Shown piece by piece: positions 2,485 to 45,191 of a stretch of 64,000 nucleotides of DNA. The notes beneath the pieces were generated by a model. That model was not told the DNA's origin, did not search any database, and was given only the letters and a program-made list of their open reading frames with translations. The stretch lies in NCBI GenBank assembly GCA_900101355.1, contig FMUV01000001.1, positions 143,457 to 207,456 on the forward strand, given 5' to 3'. This DNA is from Ruminococcus sp. YE282. GTDB lineage: Bacteria > Bacillota > Clostridia > Oscillospirales > Acutalibacteraceae. The stretch's first letter is position 1. Each line of letters opens with the position of its first letter. The translations under genes and the position numbers were made by a program.

Positions 2485-2600
2485 TCGCGGGAATTGCACA
2501 ATCAATTACATCTACTCATACAACGATTAAATTGTAAAAGCAGATAGTTAGTCTTTTTTATAATGTAGATAATGTAGAAGGATGATTGTGTTTAGCCGCG
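2485..2600 (-). ncRNA. Copy 0 of the GCGGCTAA/TCCTTCT hairpin RNA motif
   Basis: On the minus strand: GCGGCTAA, then CACAATC, then ATCCTTCT, a 70-nt interior, GATTGTG (perfect complement of CACAATC), AATTCCCGC closing the outer GCGG. The interior has its own ATCTAC/GTAGAT stem. This matches the eight plus-strand copies at 39.8-43.0 kb in stem layout and in the unpaired conserved bases. It immediately precedes the minus-strand tRNA-Glu. Confidence 0.75.
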
Positions 2601-25699: not shown

Positions 25700-25855
25700 A
25701 GACCATTAAGAGTGCGTAAGGGAACAAGCCCAATGACCGTACACCAACCTACCGAGTGGCAAGGTGGTAATGCTTGTCTGTATCGCTACAATGATATAGA
25801 ACCAATGGGAATCTTTTACACCTCTAATGAGATAAATTAGAGAGGATTTGAAACA
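25700..25855 (+). promoter_or_regulatory. Structured 5' leader, candidate translational riboswitch
   Basis: About 150 nt separate the promoter from ATG 25856. The leader contains AAGGGAACAAGCCCAATGACC, CACCAACC and AAGGTGGTAATGC, an arrangement faintly reminiscent of the SAM-I/S-box core (GGGA..GCCC, ATGA, CAACC, AAGGTG-TAAT). It ends in a hairpin CTCTAAT/ATTAGAG whose 3' arm includes the ribosome-binding site GAGAGG. That geometry fits ligand-controlled translation. Family assignment is tentative. Confidence 0.5.
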
Positions 25856-34972: not shown

Positions 34973-36394
34973 ATGGATGATTTTCAAACACTTACTGATT
35001 TTGGGAATCTCTATAATTCTTACCTTGTTTCGTTAAAAGGCAAAGGTAAGATAAAGAGTGCGGCGAGATTTAATATTATGGCACTCGAAAACCTTTATGT
35101 AATGAAGCAACGTCTTTTAAACCATACATATCGAATTTCGCCGTATTCAGAGTTTGTAGTTAAAGAACCAAAAGAAAGAATTATAAAATCTGGTTCATTT
35201 CGCGATAAGGTATTACAACATTGTTTATGCGATTATGTGTTGATACCAAAACTTAATAATGAATTTATACTTGATAATTATGCCGGACAGATTGGCAAAG
35301 GTACTTTGTTTGGTTTGGATAGATTATCGAAGCATCTATTAGATTTCTATTCCGAACGCGGTTGTAATGGTTATATTTTAAAATGTGATATAACTAAATT
35401 CTTTTATTCAATTAACCATAATGTAATGAAGAAATTGATTAAAGAATTATTTACTGATGAGGATATTCAATGGATTTGTAATTCATTTATTGACAGTGTG
35501 GATGGTGATGGTCTACCTCTCGGAAATCAAAGTAGTCAAGTTTTCGCACTTATATATCTTAACGGTCTTGACCATTACATAACCAAGGAATTAGGTTGCA
35601 AGTATTATGGTCGATATATGGACGATTTTTATTTACTTTCTGATGATAGAGAATATCTCAAAGAATGTTTGGCTAAAATTAAAAAATATTTGGCTAATCT
35701 CAAATTAACATTGAATAACAAAACCGAGATTGTTTCAATGAGTAAGGGAATACGATTTCTCGGATTTCATACATATCTTACCGAGGAGGGCAAGATTATC
35801 CGCAAACTTAACAGTGATAACAAAAGACATATTAAAAAGCGTTTGAGAAAATATGCAAAGTTAGTTTTTGATGGCAGAATGGAGAGAAAACGCTTTAATG
35901 AGATATATCAATCGTGGCGAAATCACGCTTCTCACGGTAATTGTTTTAAACTGATTTATGAAATGGATTTATTTATGGATGAATTAATGAATGAGCAGAA
36001 AACAGAATTAAGAATAATTATTGCCGGAAGTAGAGATTTCAATGATTACGAATTTCTAAAGAAACAACTGTCTAAATTTATCAAAGACCACCAGAATAGG
36101 AGATTTACTATTGTTAGTGGTGCAGCCCGTGGAGCAGACCAACTCGGAGAGAAATACGCAAGAGAGAAATGTATTCAATTAAAGCGTTTTCCTGCGGACT
36201 GGAATAACCTTGGACGGAGTGCAGGATATATTCGCAATACTCAAATGCTGGATTATATCAAGCAAAATGATTGTGAGGGATATGTATTGGCATTTTGGGA
36301 TGGTCAGAGCAAGGGAACACGGCATATGATTAAAACCGCCAAAAAAGCGGGAGTGACCGTTGAAATAAAATTTTTCAAAAAAAAATTAATGTAA
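34973..36394 (+). CDS. DGR reverse transcriptase fused to a DUF2493/SLOG domain
   Basis: A 473-residue protein. Residues 1-340 are a reverse transcriptase: KCDITKFFYSI, LPLGNQSSQ (the DGR-type version of the QG motif), YMDD at 215-218 and FLGFHTYL. Residues ~347-470 are a DUF2493 SLOG domain: IIIAGSRDFNDYEFL, VSGAARGADQLGEKYARE, PADWNNLGRSAGYIRN and FWDGQSKGT. The RT makes mutagenised cDNA from the template RNA; SLOG domains bind nucleotide-derived ligands. The RT part has its usual C-terminal length, so the SLOG part is an extra module, possibly a former overlapping gene (an internal ATG lies at the junction). Confidence 0.88.
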   Translation: MDDFQTLTDFGNLYNSYLVSLKGKGKIKSAARFNIMALENLYVMKQRLLNHTYRISPYSEFVVKEPKERIIKSGSFRDKVLQHCLCDYVLIPKLNNEFILDNYAGQIGKGTLFGLDRLSKHLLDFYSERGCNGYILKCDITKFFYSINHNVMKKLIKELFTDEDIQWICNSFIDSVDGDGLPLGNQSSQVFALIYLNGLDHYITKELGCKYYGRYMDDFYLLSDDREYLKECLAKIKKYLANLKLTLNNKTEIVSMSKGIRFLGFHTYLTEEGKIIRKLNSDNKRHIKKRLRKYAKLVFDGRMERKRFNEIYQSWRNHASHGNCFKLIYEMDLFMDELMNEQKTELRIIIAGSRDFNDYEFLKKQLSKFIKDHQNRRFTIVSGAARGADQLGEKYAREKCIQLKRFPADWNNLGRSAGYIRNTQMLDYIKQNDCEGYVLAFWDGQSKGTRHMIKTAKKAGVTVEIKFFKKKLM

Positions 36395-39767: not shown

Positions 39768-39840
39768 GTGCGTATAGCAAAATTGGTAATGCACTTGACT
39801 TTTAATCAAGAGATTGTCAGTTCGAGCCTGACTACGCACA
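39768..39840 (+). tRNA. tRNA-Lys(TTT)
   Basis: Acceptor GTGCGTA/TACGCAC, anticodon stem CTTGA/TCAAG with loop CTTTTAA (anticodon TTT), T arm GTCAG-TTCGAGC-CTGAC; CCA encoded. Confidence 0.94.
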
Positions 39841-39846
39841 CCATAG

Positions 39847-39919
39847 ACGGCTATTTGTAATCTTCCTTCTATCATTGGACTGTAAATCCGATACCACTCA
39901 TAGATTGCAAAATTCCCGT
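39847..39919 (+). ncRNA. Hairpin RNA motif copy A, enclosing a Tyr-like anticodon arm
   Basis: Outer stem ACGG/CCGT, CTA, inner helix TTTGTAATC/GATTGCAAA (one G-T pair), TTCCTTCT after the 5' strand. Its interior holds TTGGA-CTGTAAA-TCCGA, a 5-bp stem with a 7-nt loop identical to a tRNA-Tyr(GTA) anticodon arm, with no acceptor or T arm. Confidence 0.75.
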
Positions 39920-39929
39920 TACCTTTTTA

Positions 39930-40014
39930 GCGGCTATGTAGAAACTTCCTTCTTCCGTCTCACATACAGAGGTGGATTTCGACCATATGAAATTATAGTT
40001 TTTGCAATTCCCGC
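39930..40014 (+). ncRNA. Hairpin RNA motif copy B
   Basis: Outer stem GCGG/CCGC, CTA, inner helix TGTAGAAAC/GTTTTTGCA (all nine pairs, two G-T), TTCCTTCT. The interior has a possible T-arm-like GGTGGATTTCGACCA stretch. Eleven nt downstream of copy A and 30 nt before the TerD-domain gene. Confidence 0.72.
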
Positions 40015-40045
40015 GAAATTAAAAAACAAAAAAGGAGAAAAAGAA

Positions 40046-42280
40046 ATGAATGTATTAAATGAAATTTTGTTGAGAAGAAAAAATCAGCTCATTCTCGAAA
40101 ATGTAAACCCGGATTATGGACAGACCGACAGTGAAAAGGCAATGGTCGGCGCAATCCTCAAAAATGTTCAGTCACTTGGATTTACGTTTGCCCGCGATGT
40201 GCTTGAAATTCTGTTTCACTATAACCGCGCGGAGTTAGAGTCATTCTATCGTGACCTCATTCCCGAGTTGAAGAAACTTGTCGGCGCAGACGTTCAGTAC
40301 AATCCTATGTACCCGAACTTCCCGCAGCAGGTAATGGAAGCAAGCGATGCGGAACTGTTCATTAACGCCATTATTCATTATTGGTCGTTTGGAACGCTTC
40401 TCCCGCAGTACGAGAAGCAGGAAAGACTGCCTTTAATTGATGACAATAAAATGACGGTTTTATCGACAGGAAATTGCAAGAACGTAGGCGAAATCTTGCA
40501 AAATTTGCTTAAATCTCCTACAAATCTGTCTGAAAATGACAGAAATGACATAGCAACTTGCATAAAAAATATGCCAAATTATGCAGAATTTTTGCCGGAC
40601 GAGATTCCGCTCAAAGAAAACGTTGCTTTCTTGGGAAAACTCATTATTGAGCAAACTCCGATTAAAACCAGCCGAAATATCGAAAAATATTTCAAAACTG
40701 CGACAGATGTTCTTCGTTTGGTCACTGCATTGTCTGACGGCGACATCAGCCTTGCGACAAAGACTCAGTACAGAAACCTTCGTCGAGCAGAACGCAGGAT
40801 TATAATGAACTTACTTGCAAATTGCGGAAATATCTTGGAGGATTTGTACTGCTATAAGTATGAGTGGTTGTACATTGGCAAAATGCTCCACGTTGGCGAG
40901 TATTGGTATATGAAGAAGTACAACAACGTCAGAGGTGCTTTCTATACCTTCCGCAACGAGAAGAAGCCTATGTTTATGGCTGGCAAGGTTCAGGCAGCTA
41001 TTCTCAAAAACGATATGCTTGAGGCGGCAAATATGCTGAAATCAAGACCCGGCGATTTTGCAAGACAGCTTGACAAGTTGCTCAGAGATAGCGATGAAAA
41101 GCACATTGCATATATCACGGCTGCGTTTGCGGAAGTCGCGGAGAAAGTTTCAACTCCTGTTCTGTTGCAGGTCAGAGAACACTTTATCGAGCGCAAGGGC
41201 GAGAAAATGCCTATAAGAGTGTTCTTCCCGAAGGGCAATGTTGCAAAAGCTATGGTTATCCCGAATGACCTGCCGGCAATTTCTGTCACCGCTTGTCAGC
41301 AAATTGTTGATACTTGCAACAAGGCTTTGGTCGCGCAGTTCAAGACGAAAGAGCCTATGGGTAAGGTTTATATCAATCCCGATTTCAAGAACTATCTCGT
41401 GCCGTTCAGCCAGAGAAGCGCAAGTTCCGCGAATAAAATCGTTGTGCGCGGAAGTAAGTTGCCCATCAATCCAAAGGCAAAAGCTGTTCGCGGATTTATT
41501 TGGTGGACAAATATGGGTAGCAATGATATGTACGATGGCAGAGTTGACATTGACCTTTCAGCGGCAATCTATGATGAGAATTGGAACTACGTTGAACACG
41601 TTTCCTATACTAATCTCCGCTCTAAGAAGTACAACGCTTGTCATTCCGGCGACATCACGAACGGCGGGTCTGTAAACGGCGACGGCGTGGCTGAGTTCCT
41701 TGATGTGGATATTGATTCCGTTGCAAGAAATGCAGGAAGATATATCGTCTATCAGGTTTACAGTTTCACAAGGCAGAAGTTCTCTGAAATGCCCAACTGC
41801 CGATTCGGTTGGATGGAGCGTGAGGACGTTGATAGTGGTGAAATCTTTGAACCAAAGACGGTTGAGATGAAGATTGACCTCACTTCCGAGAGTGACGTTG
41901 CAATTCCCGTTATCTTCGACTGCGTGGAGCGCAAATTCATTTGGTGTGATATGAACCTCCGCATTGCACAGACGAGATTGGGCGGCAATAACCTTGAAAG
42001 CAATCTCAAAGGTACAACTGCTACTTGCTATGCGCTCACTCATTTCAACAAGCCCAATCTGTATGAGTTGGTTTACCTCAATGCTTTTGCAAGAGGTGAG
42101 ATAACCACCGACAGAAACGCGGCGGATATTATCTTCGACAATGATAAGACGATTCCTTATGAGGTTGTCGAAACCGTTGACGAGGTTACGGGATTACCTT
42201 CTCGCACACTCCGCGACAAAACGGAAGTTCCGATTATAGACAGCTATAACTTCGATTTTCTTGTCGGAGAGCTGTTATAA
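40046..42280 (+). CDS. TerD-domain protein with N-terminal helical region
   Basis: A 744-residue protein. Start ATG 40046 has AAAGGAGAAA upstream; the longer open frame upstream covers RNA motifs and is not used. Residues ~1-400 are helical (DSEKAMVGAILKNVQSLGFTFARDVLEILF; YPNFPQQV). Around residues 470-640 a TerD-type domain is visible (KAVRGFIWWTNM; RVDIDLSAAIYDENWNYVEHVSYTNL; SGDITNGGSVNGDGVAEFLDVDID; YIVYQVYSF). TerD domains bind calcium and belong to tellurite/phage-stress systems. A phage-borne version may counter or mimic such a host system (inference). Confidence 0.75.
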   Translation: MNVLNEILLRRKNQLILENVNPDYGQTDSEKAMVGAILKNVQSLGFTFARDVLEILFHYNRAELESFYRDLIPELKKLVGADVQYNPMYPNFPQQVMEASDAELFINAIIHYWSFGTLLPQYEKQERLPLIDDNKMTVLSTGNCKNVGEILQNLLKSPTNLSENDRNDIATCIKNMPNYAEFLPDEIPLKENVAFLGKLIIEQTPIKTSRNIEKYFKTATDVLRLVTALSDGDISLATKTQYRNLRRAERRIIMNLLANCGNILEDLYCYKYEWLYIGKMLHVGEYWYMKKYNNVRGAFYTFRNEKKPMFMAGKVQAAILKNDMLEAANMLKSRPGDFARQLDKLLRDSDEKHIAYITAAFAEVAEKVSTPVLLQVREHFIERKGEKMPIRVFFPKGNVAKAMVIPNDLPAISVTACQQIVDTCNKALVAQFKTKEPMGKVYINPDFKNYLVPFSQRSASSANKIVVRGSKLPINPKAKAVRGFIWWTNMGSNDMYDGRVDIDLSAAIYDENWNYVEHVSYTNLRSKKYNACHSGDITNGGSVNGDGVAEFLDVDIDSVARNAGRYIVYQVYSFTRQKFSEMPNCRFGWMEREDVDSGEIFEPKTVEMKIDLTSESDVAIPVIFDCVERKFIWCDMNLRIAQTRLGGNNLESNLKGTTATCYALTHFNKPNLYELVYLNAFARGEITTDRNAADIIFDNDKTIPYEVVETVDEVTGLPSRTLRDKTEVPIIDSYNFDFLVGELL

Positions 42281-42289
42281 TACAATTTG

Positions 42290-42373
42290 GCGGCTAAGAG
42301 ATTCCATCCTTCTAATGATAGGTTCAACTCCTGTTGTAAGTGTGGTTTACAATGTAGGAAACTCAATTTCCGC
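42290..42373 (+). ncRNA. Hairpin RNA motif copy 1, enclosing a permuted acceptor-T minihelix
   Basis: Outer stem GCGG/CCGC, CTAA, inner helix GAGATTCC/GGAAACTC (one mismatch), ATCCTTCT. The interior has a T arm (ATAGG-TTCAACT-CCTGT) followed by TGTAAGT and then GTTTACA, which pair perfectly as an acceptor stem with the 3' strand first. No D or anticodon arm is present. Confidence 0.72.
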
Positions 42374-42389
42374 AATTACACTCATTTTT

Positions 42390-42484
42390 GCGGCTAAGTG
42401 CAATCATCCTTCTATTTTTACATAATGAAGAAAATAATGCTAACCGTCGTGGTTAGCCCCAAAATTTGATTGCACAATTCCCGC
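42390..42484 (+). ncRNA. Hairpin RNA motif copy 2
   Basis: Outer stem GCGG/CCGC, CTAA, inner helix GTGCAATC/GATTGCAC (perfect), ATCCTTCT. The interior hairpin CTAAC-CGTCGTG-GTTAG has anticodon-arm size (loop would give TCG, Arg, with G at position 33). Confidence 0.75.
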
Positions 42485-42501
42485 GCTTTAATTCACATCC
42501 T

Positions 42502-42588
42502 GCGGCTAAATCATAACATCCTTCTAAAAAAAGAACTTGCGCTTTAGGCGCGACTAAATACATAAGATTTTGTTACGATAATTTCCGC
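42502..42588 (+). ncRNA. Hairpin RNA motif copy 3, enclosing a Leu-like anticodon arm
   Basis: Outer stem GCGG/CCGC, CTAA, inner helix ATCATAACA/TGTTACGAT (one G-T), TCCTTCT. The interior contains TTGCG-CTTTAGG-CGCGA, a 5-bp stem and 7-nt loop like a tRNA-Leu(TAG) anticodon arm. Confidence 0.73.
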
Positions 42589-42619
42589 AAAAAAATTAAT
42601 GTAAATAGCAAAAAACATA

Positions 42620-42648
42620 TTGACAGAAATATCATTCTATGATATAAT
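42620..42648 (+). promoter_or_regulatory. Promoter inside the hairpin-RNA array
   Basis: TTGACA (42620-42625), 17 nt, TATAAT (42643-42648), preceded by TAAATAGCAAAAAACAT. It would transcribe copies 4-6 with the permuted tRNAs and the following tRNA-Leu. Confidence 0.8.
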
Positions 42649-42674
42649 CTTAAATGTAAGTTAAACAAACTATT

Positions 42675-42750
42675 GTGGCTAACAAAATTCATCCTTCTAC
42701 CCGTATGGGAACAAAATTGGTAGTTTGTCTATTGAATTTTGAATTTCCAC
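42675..42750 (+). ncRNA. Hairpin RNA motif copy 4
   Basis: Outer stem GTGG/CCAC (compensated relative to GCGG/CCGC), CTAA, inner helix CAAAATTC/GAATTTTG (perfect), ATCCTTCT. The interior has CCC-GTAT-GGG and an ACAAA/TTTGT hairpin with loop ATTGGTAG that resembles a D arm. Confidence 0.75.
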
Positions 42751-42765
42751 TTTTACATAGTTTAA

Positions 42766-42897
42766 TCGGCTAAGAAACATCATCCTTCTAAAAAGTGTTA
42801 ATCTGTTTGTCGTGGGTTCGAGTCCCACCACGCTACGAATGTAGGGTGTAGCTCAGTTGGTAGAGCAACAGCGAAAAGTCGATGTTTCAATTTCCGA
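42766..42897 (+). ncRNA. Hairpin RNA motif copy 5, enclosing a permuted tRNA
   Basis: Outer stem TCGG/CCGA (again compensated), CTAA, inner helix GAAACATC/GATGTTTC (perfect), ATCCTTCT, then the permuted tRNA-Asn-like sequence, then AATTT. Separated from copy 4 by 15 nt. Confidence 0.8.
42795..42872 (+). tRNA. Circularly permuted tRNA, Asn(GTT)-like
   Basis: The 3' half comes first: T-GTT-AA (anticodon loop), TCTGT, T arm GTGGG-TTCGAGT-CCCAC, acceptor 3' strand CACGCTA. After six nt the 5' half follows: acceptor TAGGGTG, TA, D arm GCTC-AGTTGGTA-GAGC, anticodon stem AACAG. TAGGGTG and CACGCTA pair at six of seven positions; AACAG pairs with CTGTT. The reverse assignment (this 5' half with the next 3' half) fails to pair. 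The exact joining point in the anticodon loop is not visible. Confidence 0.72.
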
Positions 42898-42914
42898 ACA
42901 ATAATTGAATTTGG

Positions 42915-43041
42915 GCGGCTAACGAGTATCATCCTTCTTACAGCTCCAAACTGCAATCGCGGGTTCGATTCCCGCTCATCCAACCTTTGGGTGGTGGTCA
43001 AGTGGTAAGACAGCAGTTATGTACGATATTCAAATTCCCGC
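42915..43041 (+). ncRNA. Hairpin RNA motif copy 6, enclosing a permuted tRNA
   Basis: Outer stem GCGG/CCGC, CTAA, inner helix GAGTATC/GATATTC (one G-T pair), ATCCTTCT, then the permuted tRNA-Trp-like sequence, then AAATT. 17 nt after copy 5. Confidence 0.8.
42944..43017 (+). tRNA. Circularly permuted tRNA, Trp(CCA)-like
   Basis: 3' half first: CTCCAA (loop with anticodon CCA), ACTGC, T arm GCGGG-TTCGATT-CCCGC, acceptor TCATCCA. After A-CCTT the 5' half: acceptor TGGGTGG, TG, D arm GTC-AAGTGGTAA-GAC, A, stem GCAGT. TGGGTGG/TCATCCA pair at all seven positions (two G-T); GCAGT/ACTGC pair fully. The loop is one A shorter than a usual Trp loop. Confidence 0.75.
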
Positions 43042-43724: not shown

Positions 43725-45191
43725 TTGAGTACAGATAAGAAATACTATAAAATTTCACAATATACAATGAAATGCCGACTTTATCCGAATAAAACGGTTG
43801 CTAAAGGTTTTGATAAGGCAATTCAAGCTATTCATTGTTATCATAATTGCCTTTTATACGATATTTTTAATGGAAACATTGAATCTACTGCAAAGCCATA
43901 TAAGCCAAAAAAGGAATCAAAGCCTGAGAAAAAGAAAAATGAAAGCGATTTTGATTATCGGCAACGTCTTTACTCTTATGAACAAAAGCAAAAGTACAAA
44001 GAGGGCGATATAATTCATTTCCCGAATTTGAATTACGCATTTTCCGCAGAGTATAAGAACAAGTTAATCGAAGAACATCCCGTAATCGCTAATGCTCCGG
44101 CTTCTGCAATCACAGCAAAGATTGGTCTTATGTCCGATGTTAAGAAATCGCTCGGCAAACTTCCAATCGAATTTCAGAAACCAAAGTATTATAGCAAGAA
44201 AAAGCCAAGACAGAGTTTTTCTTATCAAGATGTATTAGGTAAATTAGTTGAAACCGATAATAAAAATGTATTGTTTATTAAACTGCCAGAGAAATTTGGC
44301 GGCACACGCTCAAATCCTGCAAAGTGTAAAATTCGCGGTTGGAATAAAAAAATTCGTTTTGATAGATACGGGGAAATAAATTTTATAGATTATTTCAAAT
44401 CCAATCCAAACAAAAGGATTACTATTAAAATCGAAAAGGATAATTGTGGTGATTATTGGATTGTTTTTTCACTGACCAATGTTTATAAGTCAATGGCAAA
44501 TCCACAAAATACATTTGGTGGTATTGATGTTGGAATAAAAGATATTGCTATTCTTTCTGATAATACAAAATTTGAAAATCGAAAATTTAAGGATGAAGAA
44601 AAACAGCATATTAAATTTTTGAATAGGCGATTGAGCAGAAGGCAAGGTTGGTCTAACGAAGAATTTAGAGATGGCTATAAGCAGAACAAAGATATGATTG
44701 TATCAAAAACATATCAGAGAACACAGCTTAAACTTTCTAAATTACACAGAAAAATCGCTCGTAAGAGGGAGAACTATAATCATAATATAACCACAAAGAT
44801 TATAAATACATATTCGTTCATTGGTATTGAAACTCTGAATGTAACTGGTATGTTTAGAAACAGACATTTATCAAATGCTTTGTCGGATGCCGCTATGGGA
44901 GAAATTTTGTCAATGCTTAAATATAAAGCAGAATGGTATGACAGAATCATTCAACCCATCAGTCAATGGTCGCCATCAAGTAAACGGTGTAGTTGCTGCG
45001 GATATATTAGACCAAAGTTGGGCTTACATATCAGAGAGTGGCAATGTCCAAAATGCGGAACGTTTCACGATAGAGATGTAAATGCCGCAATAAATATTCT
45101 TTACTATGCTTTGTTAATTTATTACGGCGAAGAAAAAGGCAAAGAAATTTTTGAAAAATTGAATAATAATTTTCAATTATTATGTGCATAG
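43725..45191 (+). CDS. Compact TnpB/Cas12-family RNA-guided nuclease
   Basis: A 488-residue protein starting at TTG 43725 (AAGGAGAAG upstream). The RuvC triad is intact: D268 in GIDVGIKD, E369 in GIETLNV and D451 in DRDVNAAINI. A zinc-finger insert with two Cys pairs (CSCCG...CPKCG) lies before the last Asp, as in TnpB and Cas12f/Cas12-U effectors. Size is in the overlap of large TnpB and small Cas12. A true CRISPR array 197 nt downstream argues for use as a type V effector. No Cas1/Cas2 or TnpA neighbours. It would cut DNA complementary to its spacers. Confidence 0.85.
   Translation: MSTDKKYYKISQYTMKCRLYPNKTVAKGFDKAIQAIHCYHNCLLYDIFNGNIESTAKPYKPKKESKPEKKKNESDFDYRQRLYSYEQKQKYKEGDIIHFPNLNYAFSAEYKNKLIEEHPVIANAPASAITAKIGLMSDVKKSLGKLPIEFQKPKYYSKKKPRQSFSYQDVLGKLVETDNKNVLFIKLPEKFGGTRSNPAKCKIRGWNKKIRFDRYGEINFIDYFKSNPNKRITIKIEKDNCGDYWIVFSLTNVYKSMANPQNTFGGIDVGIKDIAILSDNTKFENRKFKDEEKQHIKFLNRRLSRRQGWSNEEFRDGYKQNKDMIVSKTYQRTQLKLSKLHRKIARKRENYNHNITTKIINTYSFIGIETLNVTGMFRNRHLSNALSDAAMGEILSMLKYKAEWYDRIIQPISQWSPSSKRCSCCGYIRPKLGLHIREWQCPKCGTFHDRDVNAAINILYYALLIYYGEEKGKEIFEKLNNNFQLLCA

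Follow-up and report, generated by a model that had tools for sequence, protein, structure and literature searches.

Why is one protein gene in a phage-like region flanked by tandem copies of a structured element whose interior differs from copy to copy, and what might such elements do? The window analysed here is a stretch of 64,000 nucleotides (nt) of contig FMUV01000001.1 (assembly GCA_900101355.1, Ruminococcus sp. YE282), in a region read as phage. Nine copies of the element were present in the window, eight on the plus strand and one on the minus strand, and the gene for a protein of 744 amino acids (aa) stood between the copies at 39930 and 42290. The elements probably constitute a family of small RNAs resembling bacterial Y RNAs, in which a constant handle would be docked on the neighboring protein and a variable cassette would tether, gate or decoy an enzyme that handles transfer RNA (tRNA). 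We infer that the RNAs would be expressed, would physically bind the protein and would tether or decoy such an enzyme, with a putative role in the repair of tRNA or in resistance to defences that cleave it. The elements and the gene were as follows.

Element 1, 39847..39919, plus strand: anticodon-arm-like hairpin in the interior (TTGGA CTGTAAA TCCGA; loop as for a GTA anticodon).
Element 2, 39930..40014, plus strand: two small hairpins in the interior, with weak T-arm likeness.
Protein gene, 40046..42280, plus strand: 744-aa protein, putative RNA partner, with a helical N-terminal part (~1-388) and a predicted TerD-like C-terminal domain (~480-640).
Element 3, 42290..42373, plus strand: interior of a T-arm and a 7-bp (base pair) acceptor-like stem.
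Element 4, 42390..42484, plus strand: 7-bp hairpin in the interior.
Element 5, 42502..42588, plus strand: small GC-rich hairpin in the interior.
Element 6, 42675..42750, plus strand: interior without clear tRNA likeness.
Element 7, 42766..42897, plus strand: permuted tRNA body with T-arm, acceptor of 6/7 bp, D-arm and 5-bp anticodon stem.
Element 8, 42915..43041, plus strand: permuted tRNA body with T-stem of 5, acceptor of 7 and anticodon stem of 5 bp.
Element 9, 2487..2599, minus strand: adjoins a different tRNA cluster; the protein gene is 37 kb away.

A first-pass annotation, made from the sequence, had placed the nine copies correctly (the eight plus-strand starts listed above; minus strand 2599-2487) and had described them as an undescribed hairpin RNA family with linkers of 10-17 nt. 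The measured linkers were 10, 16, 17, 86, 15 and 17 nt, all within the claimed range except that of 86 nt, which contained a promoter match. The pattern GGCTA-N7..13-TCCTTCT had nine matches in the window, where shuffles gave an expectation of 0.03, and no further exact match in the 2.54 Mb bin. The AATTYCC motif named by the first-pass annotation was not enriched in the window by itself (36 against 34 expected) and was corrected in this respect.

The constant part, here called the handle, consisted of an outer stem ending in GG/CC, a CUA(A)/AUUU internal loop, an inner helix of 7-9 bp and free sequence, and then UCCUUCU (the core). The description as a structured RNA was borne out; the hairpin itself was the handle of a modular RNA with a variable interior cassette. 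Covariation of the inner helix held up in the window copies, where 7.44 of 8 pairs were formed by native arms and 4.28 once arms had been exchanged between copies, and the native pairing sum was attained in 1 of 100,000 permutations. In this swap test the arms were fixed by motif alone and partners were not picked by pairing; the T-arm of the copy at 42915 was wrongly taken as the 3' motif by the regular expression and was retained, which works against the result. The claim that the inner helix pairs in every copy required one mismatch each to be allowed in the copies at 42290 and 42502. For the outer stem, 4 bp paired in all nine copies as claimed, though swapped outer arms still paired at 3.57 of 4 because GG/CC is constant.

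Relatives of the protein were encoded at 62 viral loci and in six annotated records, giving 68 loci, of which 56 were distinct. Positions up to 700 nt ahead of the protein gene or up to 1000 nt past it were defined as near the gene. In the distinct loci, 195 UCCUUCU cores near the gene were in the sense orientation and nine were antisense, while the corresponding numbers elsewhere in these loci were 36 and 99. A near-gene UCCUUCU was found in 54 of the 56; the exceptions were phage Weasels2 (L313) and L295, for which the only core listed lay at +1018. The combination of GG[CG][CT][AGT] and the core occurred 151 times in sense and 0 times in antisense near the gene, and 14 and 2 times elsewhere. 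A pairing finder, scoring the inner and outer helices in fixed register, accepted 146 of the 195 near-gene cores, distributed over 46 loci, compared with 56 of 3900 when downstream sequence was swapped in from another locus and 3 of 122 cores that were far from the gene or antisense. Accepted elements numbered 2.5 per locus at the median and eight at most; 87 were upstream of the gene and 59 downstream, and their 8-nt inner arms were distinct in 129 of 146 cases. Elements beside the gene also passed a finder in a Niallia megaplasmid, Vibrio vulnificus and V. parahaemolyticus, and were visible by eye only in Variovorax. The first viral and genome scans had used CGGCTA-N6..12-ATCCTTCT, which was too loose; among the matches listed, only L013 was convincing by eye after filtering, besides L122, which shares a contig with L248, a locus whose gene is 100% identical to that of the window.

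The handle-protein pair was not confined to phages and occurred also on plasmids and bacterial chromosomes. The RING_SCO0854 protein model, which matches the 744-aa protein, was found in five of 398 genomes of the phylum, one being the genome of the window itself and the other four belonging to one family. In that family the protein was present in 35 of 118 genomes. Among 31 bacterial loci of ~4 kb each, 30 had one or two sense elements (53 in total) directly ahead of the gene and none in antisense; one locus (L348) had no element. The fixed handle pattern was present in 36 of the 118 genomes of the family, and its reversed control in one. The pattern occurred in 34 of the 35 genomes with the protein and in 2 of the 83 without it (Fisher p 4.5e-26). 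Genomes G635 and G640 had the handle pattern without the protein, and G704 had the pattern with protein matches in two short pieces only.

Covariation was measured in 68 elements picked for distinct inner helices, 60 viral or plasmid and eight bacterial, with 500 shuffles. In this set, 92.3% of cells were paired against 54.7% in shuffles and 414 cells were changed on both sides against 137; neither value was reached in any of the 500 shuffles. The elements had been pre-selected by the pairing finder, and the paired percentage is hence biased towards structure, a bias guarded against by the window swap test and the swapped-downstream control of the finder. The covariation score was 0.947 against 0.201 in shuffles (0 of 500 as high) and 0.105-0.203 with the partner slid. 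Neither the count of doubly changed pairs nor that of pair types exceeded shuffles in this set (241 and 164 of 500, respectively), because nearly every column varies, and the inner helix had no covariation at its basal pair, the ninth. G.U cells outnumbered A.C cells by 117 to 27 (2136 cells, distinct rows; p 1.5e-14). This excess fixes the strand and favours RNA over DNA, and speaks for the handle acting as RNA on the strand of the gene. No Rfam family reached its gathering score on any window copy, one of the checks that the first-pass annotation had named; together with the covariation over 68 elements, this supports its claim of a functional structured RNA outside known families. It had missed the tRNA-like interiors in several copies, the Y RNA layout, the association with the protein gene and the occurrence in bacteria.

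Four types of cassette were distinguished in the interiors: a permuted tRNA body without an anticodon loop, an anticodon-arm-like hairpin, a T-arm and, in most copies, a small hairpin. In the copies at 42766 and 42915, the cassette ran in the order T-arm, 3' acceptor strand, short closing linker, 5' acceptor strand and D-arm, and these tRNA pieces were bracketed by a 5-bp anticodon stem, whose two strands ran into the inner helix. The 146 elements comprised 18 with permuted tRNA, three with a T-arm and acceptor, four with a T-arm, 18 with an anticodon-arm-like hairpin and 103 others. Among the 18 permuted cassettes, the acceptor had 6-7 of 7 bp in 17 (L304 had four), the anticodon stem had 4 or 5 of 5 pairs, and the linker began with ACCA in four. 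By reading, no loop with an anticodon was left in any of the 18, the inner helix following the anticodon stem.

Anticodon-arm-like hairpins made up 18 of the 125 non-permuted interiors against a shuffled expectation of 0.76, a count in which orthologous copies of related phages were entered separately and several of the 18 loops are weak or doubtful. The Y-U..R-N pattern was present in 18 of the 31 interiors with a 7-nt loop, compared with 0-6 at the remaining loop lengths, 3 to 12, and the loop CTTTTAA, as in tRNA-Lys (UUU), occurred in three of the 18. Owing to the weak members and the sharing among related phages, the anticodon-arm pattern is taken as suggestive.

The permuted interiors resembled YrlA, a bacterial Y RNA. 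Element 7 matched the Rfam YrlA family (RF02553) at 44.3 bits (E 7.8e-8; cut-off 69) and element 8 at 19.2 bits (E 1.4). Ten loci of relatives, picked for permuted tRNA-like interiors, each had at least one YrlA match on such an interior, at 33.3 to 51.0 bits. Altogether, these loci gave 13 matches, of which eight covered only model positions 23-88, the tRNA module, and five spanned the model, as did that of element 7. The curated cut-off of 69 bits was never attained, the best match in these loci, chosen for permuted cassettes, being 51.0. One further match (L285, 7397-7464, plus strand; 42.3 bits) was on no element seen by the finder. In the phages RcXuper and RpAliso, UCCUUCU preceded YrlA matches once and twice, respectively, and all three failed the pairing finder. 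Slightly upstream of their YrlA-like permuted interiors, RcXuper (L318 2786-3088) and RpAliso (L319 2414-2635) contained a permuted transfer-messenger RNA (tmRNA) family above cut-off.

The layout shared with YrlA is a basal stem with an internal loop formed by the 5' and 3' ends, which the handle has, and a cassette that may consist of the D, T and acceptor arms of a permuted tRNA, standing where the anticodon arm would be, found here in 18 of 146 elements only. In contrast, the handle sequence of the array is unlike that of YrlA, the neighboring gene is RING_SCO0854-like and not TROVE, there are up to nine copies per phage and most cassettes are not tRNA-like. To our knowledge, bacterial Y RNAs have been found with one kind of protein only, Rsr/Ro60. 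In one description, the YrlA basal stem holds Rsr and the tRNA-like domain holds PNPase (PMC8394870). Another source suggests that Salmonella YrlA might competitively inhibit an anticodon nuclease and describes the rsr-yrlBA-rtcBA operon (PMC7790460). With that operon the array shares a gene for an RNA-binding protein, putatively so in the array, beside small tRNA-mimic RNAs, and one array relative has rtcR 1.3 kb from the protein gene; it differs in that no rtcBA was seen in the array and its protein is of the RING_SCO0854/TerD type. No description of the handle RNA family was found in searches of an open-licence library, and a Y RNA paper outside it may show one.

The 744-aa protein matched the functionally uncharacterised PHROG 33734 and also the NCBI model RING_SCO0854 (NF041916) at 387.6 bits (E 1.2e-115), under the cut-off of 600. 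This model matched all 46 members of the set formed by the protein and 45 viral relatives. No paper on MXAN_6230 was found in the open-licence library. The Pfam TerD domain (PF02342) was found at E 0.1 in seven of the 46 members (best 4.6e-5), the window protein not being among them. An alignment of the window protein with the 45 viral relatives was used for both structure predictions. The AlphaFold model of the whole protein had a predicted local distance difference test score (pLDDT) of 87.5, and Foldseek matched its C-terminal domain to TerD structures (E 2.9e-5). The profile matches in relatives and the predicted fold together indicate a TerD-like C-terminal domain. For the helical N-terminal model (pLDDT 91.6), the best Foldseek match had E 0.49, and Ro60 was not among the best 50 of 274. 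TROVE (PF05731) was absent from the Pfam matches of the 46 members at E 0.1, hhalign of the protein family against four TROVE proteins gave a probability of 0.2% with a shallow TROVE profile, and the genome of the window had no TROVE match. Neither profile nor fold comparison gave a sign of kinship of the protein with Ro60. In genomes G265 and G304 a TROVE match and a RING_SCO0854 match occurred within one genome, so the two systems can coexist.

Three further features of the region bear on transcription and tRNA handling.

tRNA-Lys (TTT), 39768..39843, plus strand: ends 3 nt before element 1.
Sigma70-type promoter match, 42620..42648, plus strand: TTGACA-17-TATAAT, 12/12, with TG before the -10; a sequence match only.
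Thg1-like tRNA guanylyltransferase of the phage contig, 46564..47415, plus strand: 4.3 kb downstream of the protein gene.

The promoter match separated elements 5 and 6 and preceded the core of the latter by 44 nt. In six of seven related loci scanned, a 12/12 promoter match was present 41-59 nt before a downstream core (none in L257). From these matches, the RNAs are probably made on their own. Co-transcription of tRNA-Lys and element 1 is probable from their spacing, and the upstream elements may be cut from the tRNA transcript. The Thg1-like enzyme is a possible partner in tRNA repair. Among relatives, the rtcR of Variovorax was last in a divergent run of four genes, phage Weasels2 encoded RtcB 3.2 kb downstream of the gene, and an RNA ligase was 3.2 kb downstream in Vibrio.

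Elsewhere in the window, all on the plus strand, a gene for a TnpB/Cas12f-like transposase followed directly after the array (43725-45191). A reverse transcriptase fused to a SLOG (YAcAr) domain (34973-36394) had PHROG 1423 as its best match and matched defence-type reverse transcriptase models in PADLOC. A phage tmRNA (37517-37916) had an unusual predicted tag peptide, DTTVVTLHPALLAVLGQRAVA, a reading that may be wrong, and an S-adenosylmethionine (SAM) riboswitch (25703-25808) scored 45.3 bits, just above the cut-off of 44.4.

Several observations weigh against a Y-RNA-like partnership of handle, protein and tRNA-handling enzyme. No element was accepted in ten of the 56 distinct loci (L266, L280, L293, L295, L299, L300, L301, L313, L315 and L317), some of which have weaker or variant elements. 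By the finder, the protein occurred without an element in Weasels2, LpeD, SCTP-2, WXIN, a Streptomyces plasmid, L295 and L300, and likewise in records of Deinococcus, Prevotella, Hymenobacter and Segatella; that of Hymenobacter had a T-arm after a UCCUUCU ahead of the gene, and the closing arm was not seen. Two partial relatives (L253 and L254) had no element beside the gene. Many of the element-less relatives are distant and may have a different handle. With the test used, 103 of the 146 cassettes had no tRNA likeness, and bacterial interiors of 16-51 nt looked like plain hairpins; thus, tRNA mimicry is not universal. The position of the bacterial copies directly upstream of the gene would also fit a cis-acting leader. 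PADLOC had no match for the 744-aa protein, and seven further perfect promoter matches lay elsewhere in the seven loci scanned. The Weasels2 copy of the gene, which has RtcB nearby, is without elements, and no RNA-repair genes were seen in ten open reading frames scanned around the gene in two bacterial genomes.

The leader reading holds that the element, in the 5' region of the messenger RNA, binds the protein and autoregulates translation, and that the phage copies are duplicates that have spread. In 30 of 31 bacterial loci one or two same-strand elements immediately precede the gene, and 87 of 146 phage and plasmid elements are upstream of it; both observations agree with such a role. A leader is nevertheless unlikely, given that 59 elements are downstream, that one window copy lies 37 kb off on the other strand, that a perfect promoter match stands ahead of downstream copies and that a leader has no need for whole tRNA bodies. 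Somewhat doubtful as well is the proposal that the RNAs serve as free decoys for anticodon nucleases or for other defences that cleave tRNA, and that the protein does no more than stabilise them. The excess of anticodon-arm-like cassettes over shuffles and the Y-U..R-N enrichment in 7-nt loops point towards decoys, as do the three Lys-type CTTTTAA loops; tRNA-Lys is cut by PARIS AriB (PMC11455837). The separate counting of orthologous copies and the several unconvincing arms reduce the force of these numbers, and in bacteria the handle is retained with no evident tRNA-like cassette.

Circularly permuted tRNA genes occur in algae and archaea, and the order of the tRNA halves is the same in the array. 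True permuted tRNA genes, with the handle mediating circularisation or splicing to yield decoding tRNAs, would account for the 3' half preceding the 5' half, for the presence of T-arm, D-arm, acceptor stem and an anticodon stem of 4-5 bp, and for the four of 18 linkers starting with ACCA. Unlike those genes, the array keeps no usable anticodon loop in the 18 cases, where the inner helix leaves from the anticodon stem, and most cassettes carried by the same handle are not tRNA-like; no splicing enzyme was identified in a search that took in part of the window proteins. We regard this origin as very improbable, and spliced permuted tRNA genes as such were rejected on the absent anticodon loop. 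Tri-split tRNAs were rejected because the same handle carries non-tRNA interiors, and a self-cleaving ribozyme or group I intron on the sole basis that Rfam gave no match. That the repeats are a DNA element, either mobile or a single-stranded DNA hairpin, is scarcely credible: tandem copies with varied interiors and a TnpB-like gene after the array would suit it, but strand bias already disfavours it, the strand being nearly always that of the gene, promoter matches are present, and a DNA repeat was rejected on the 117:27 ratio of G.U to A.C on one strand.

Under the Y-RNA-like reading, the handle would most likely dock on the neighboring helical and TerD-like protein, by analogy with Y RNAs, and the cassette, imitating a tRNA body, an anticodon arm or a T-arm in some copies, would point outward. 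There it would tether, gate or decoy a tRNA-handling enzyme, much as YrlA tethers PNPase to Rsr. Cassettes would have multiplied in some phages, and bacteria of one family would retain mostly one or two simple cassettes just upstream of the gene.

A wider proposal is advanced tentatively, as somewhat short of an even chance: that these elements represent a second class of Y ribonucleoprotein, independent of Ro60, with one handle and exchangeable heads, serving in phages as a library that tethers or decoys tRNA-cleaving or tRNA-repairing enzymes during infection and reduced in bacteria. If true, tRNA-mimic tether RNAs would have arisen or spread more than once, and an unstudied protein family would gain a partner RNA. 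Phage arrays, in which one handle is combined with tRNA-like heads, would allow a direct test of a decoy or tether role against tRNA-targeting defence.

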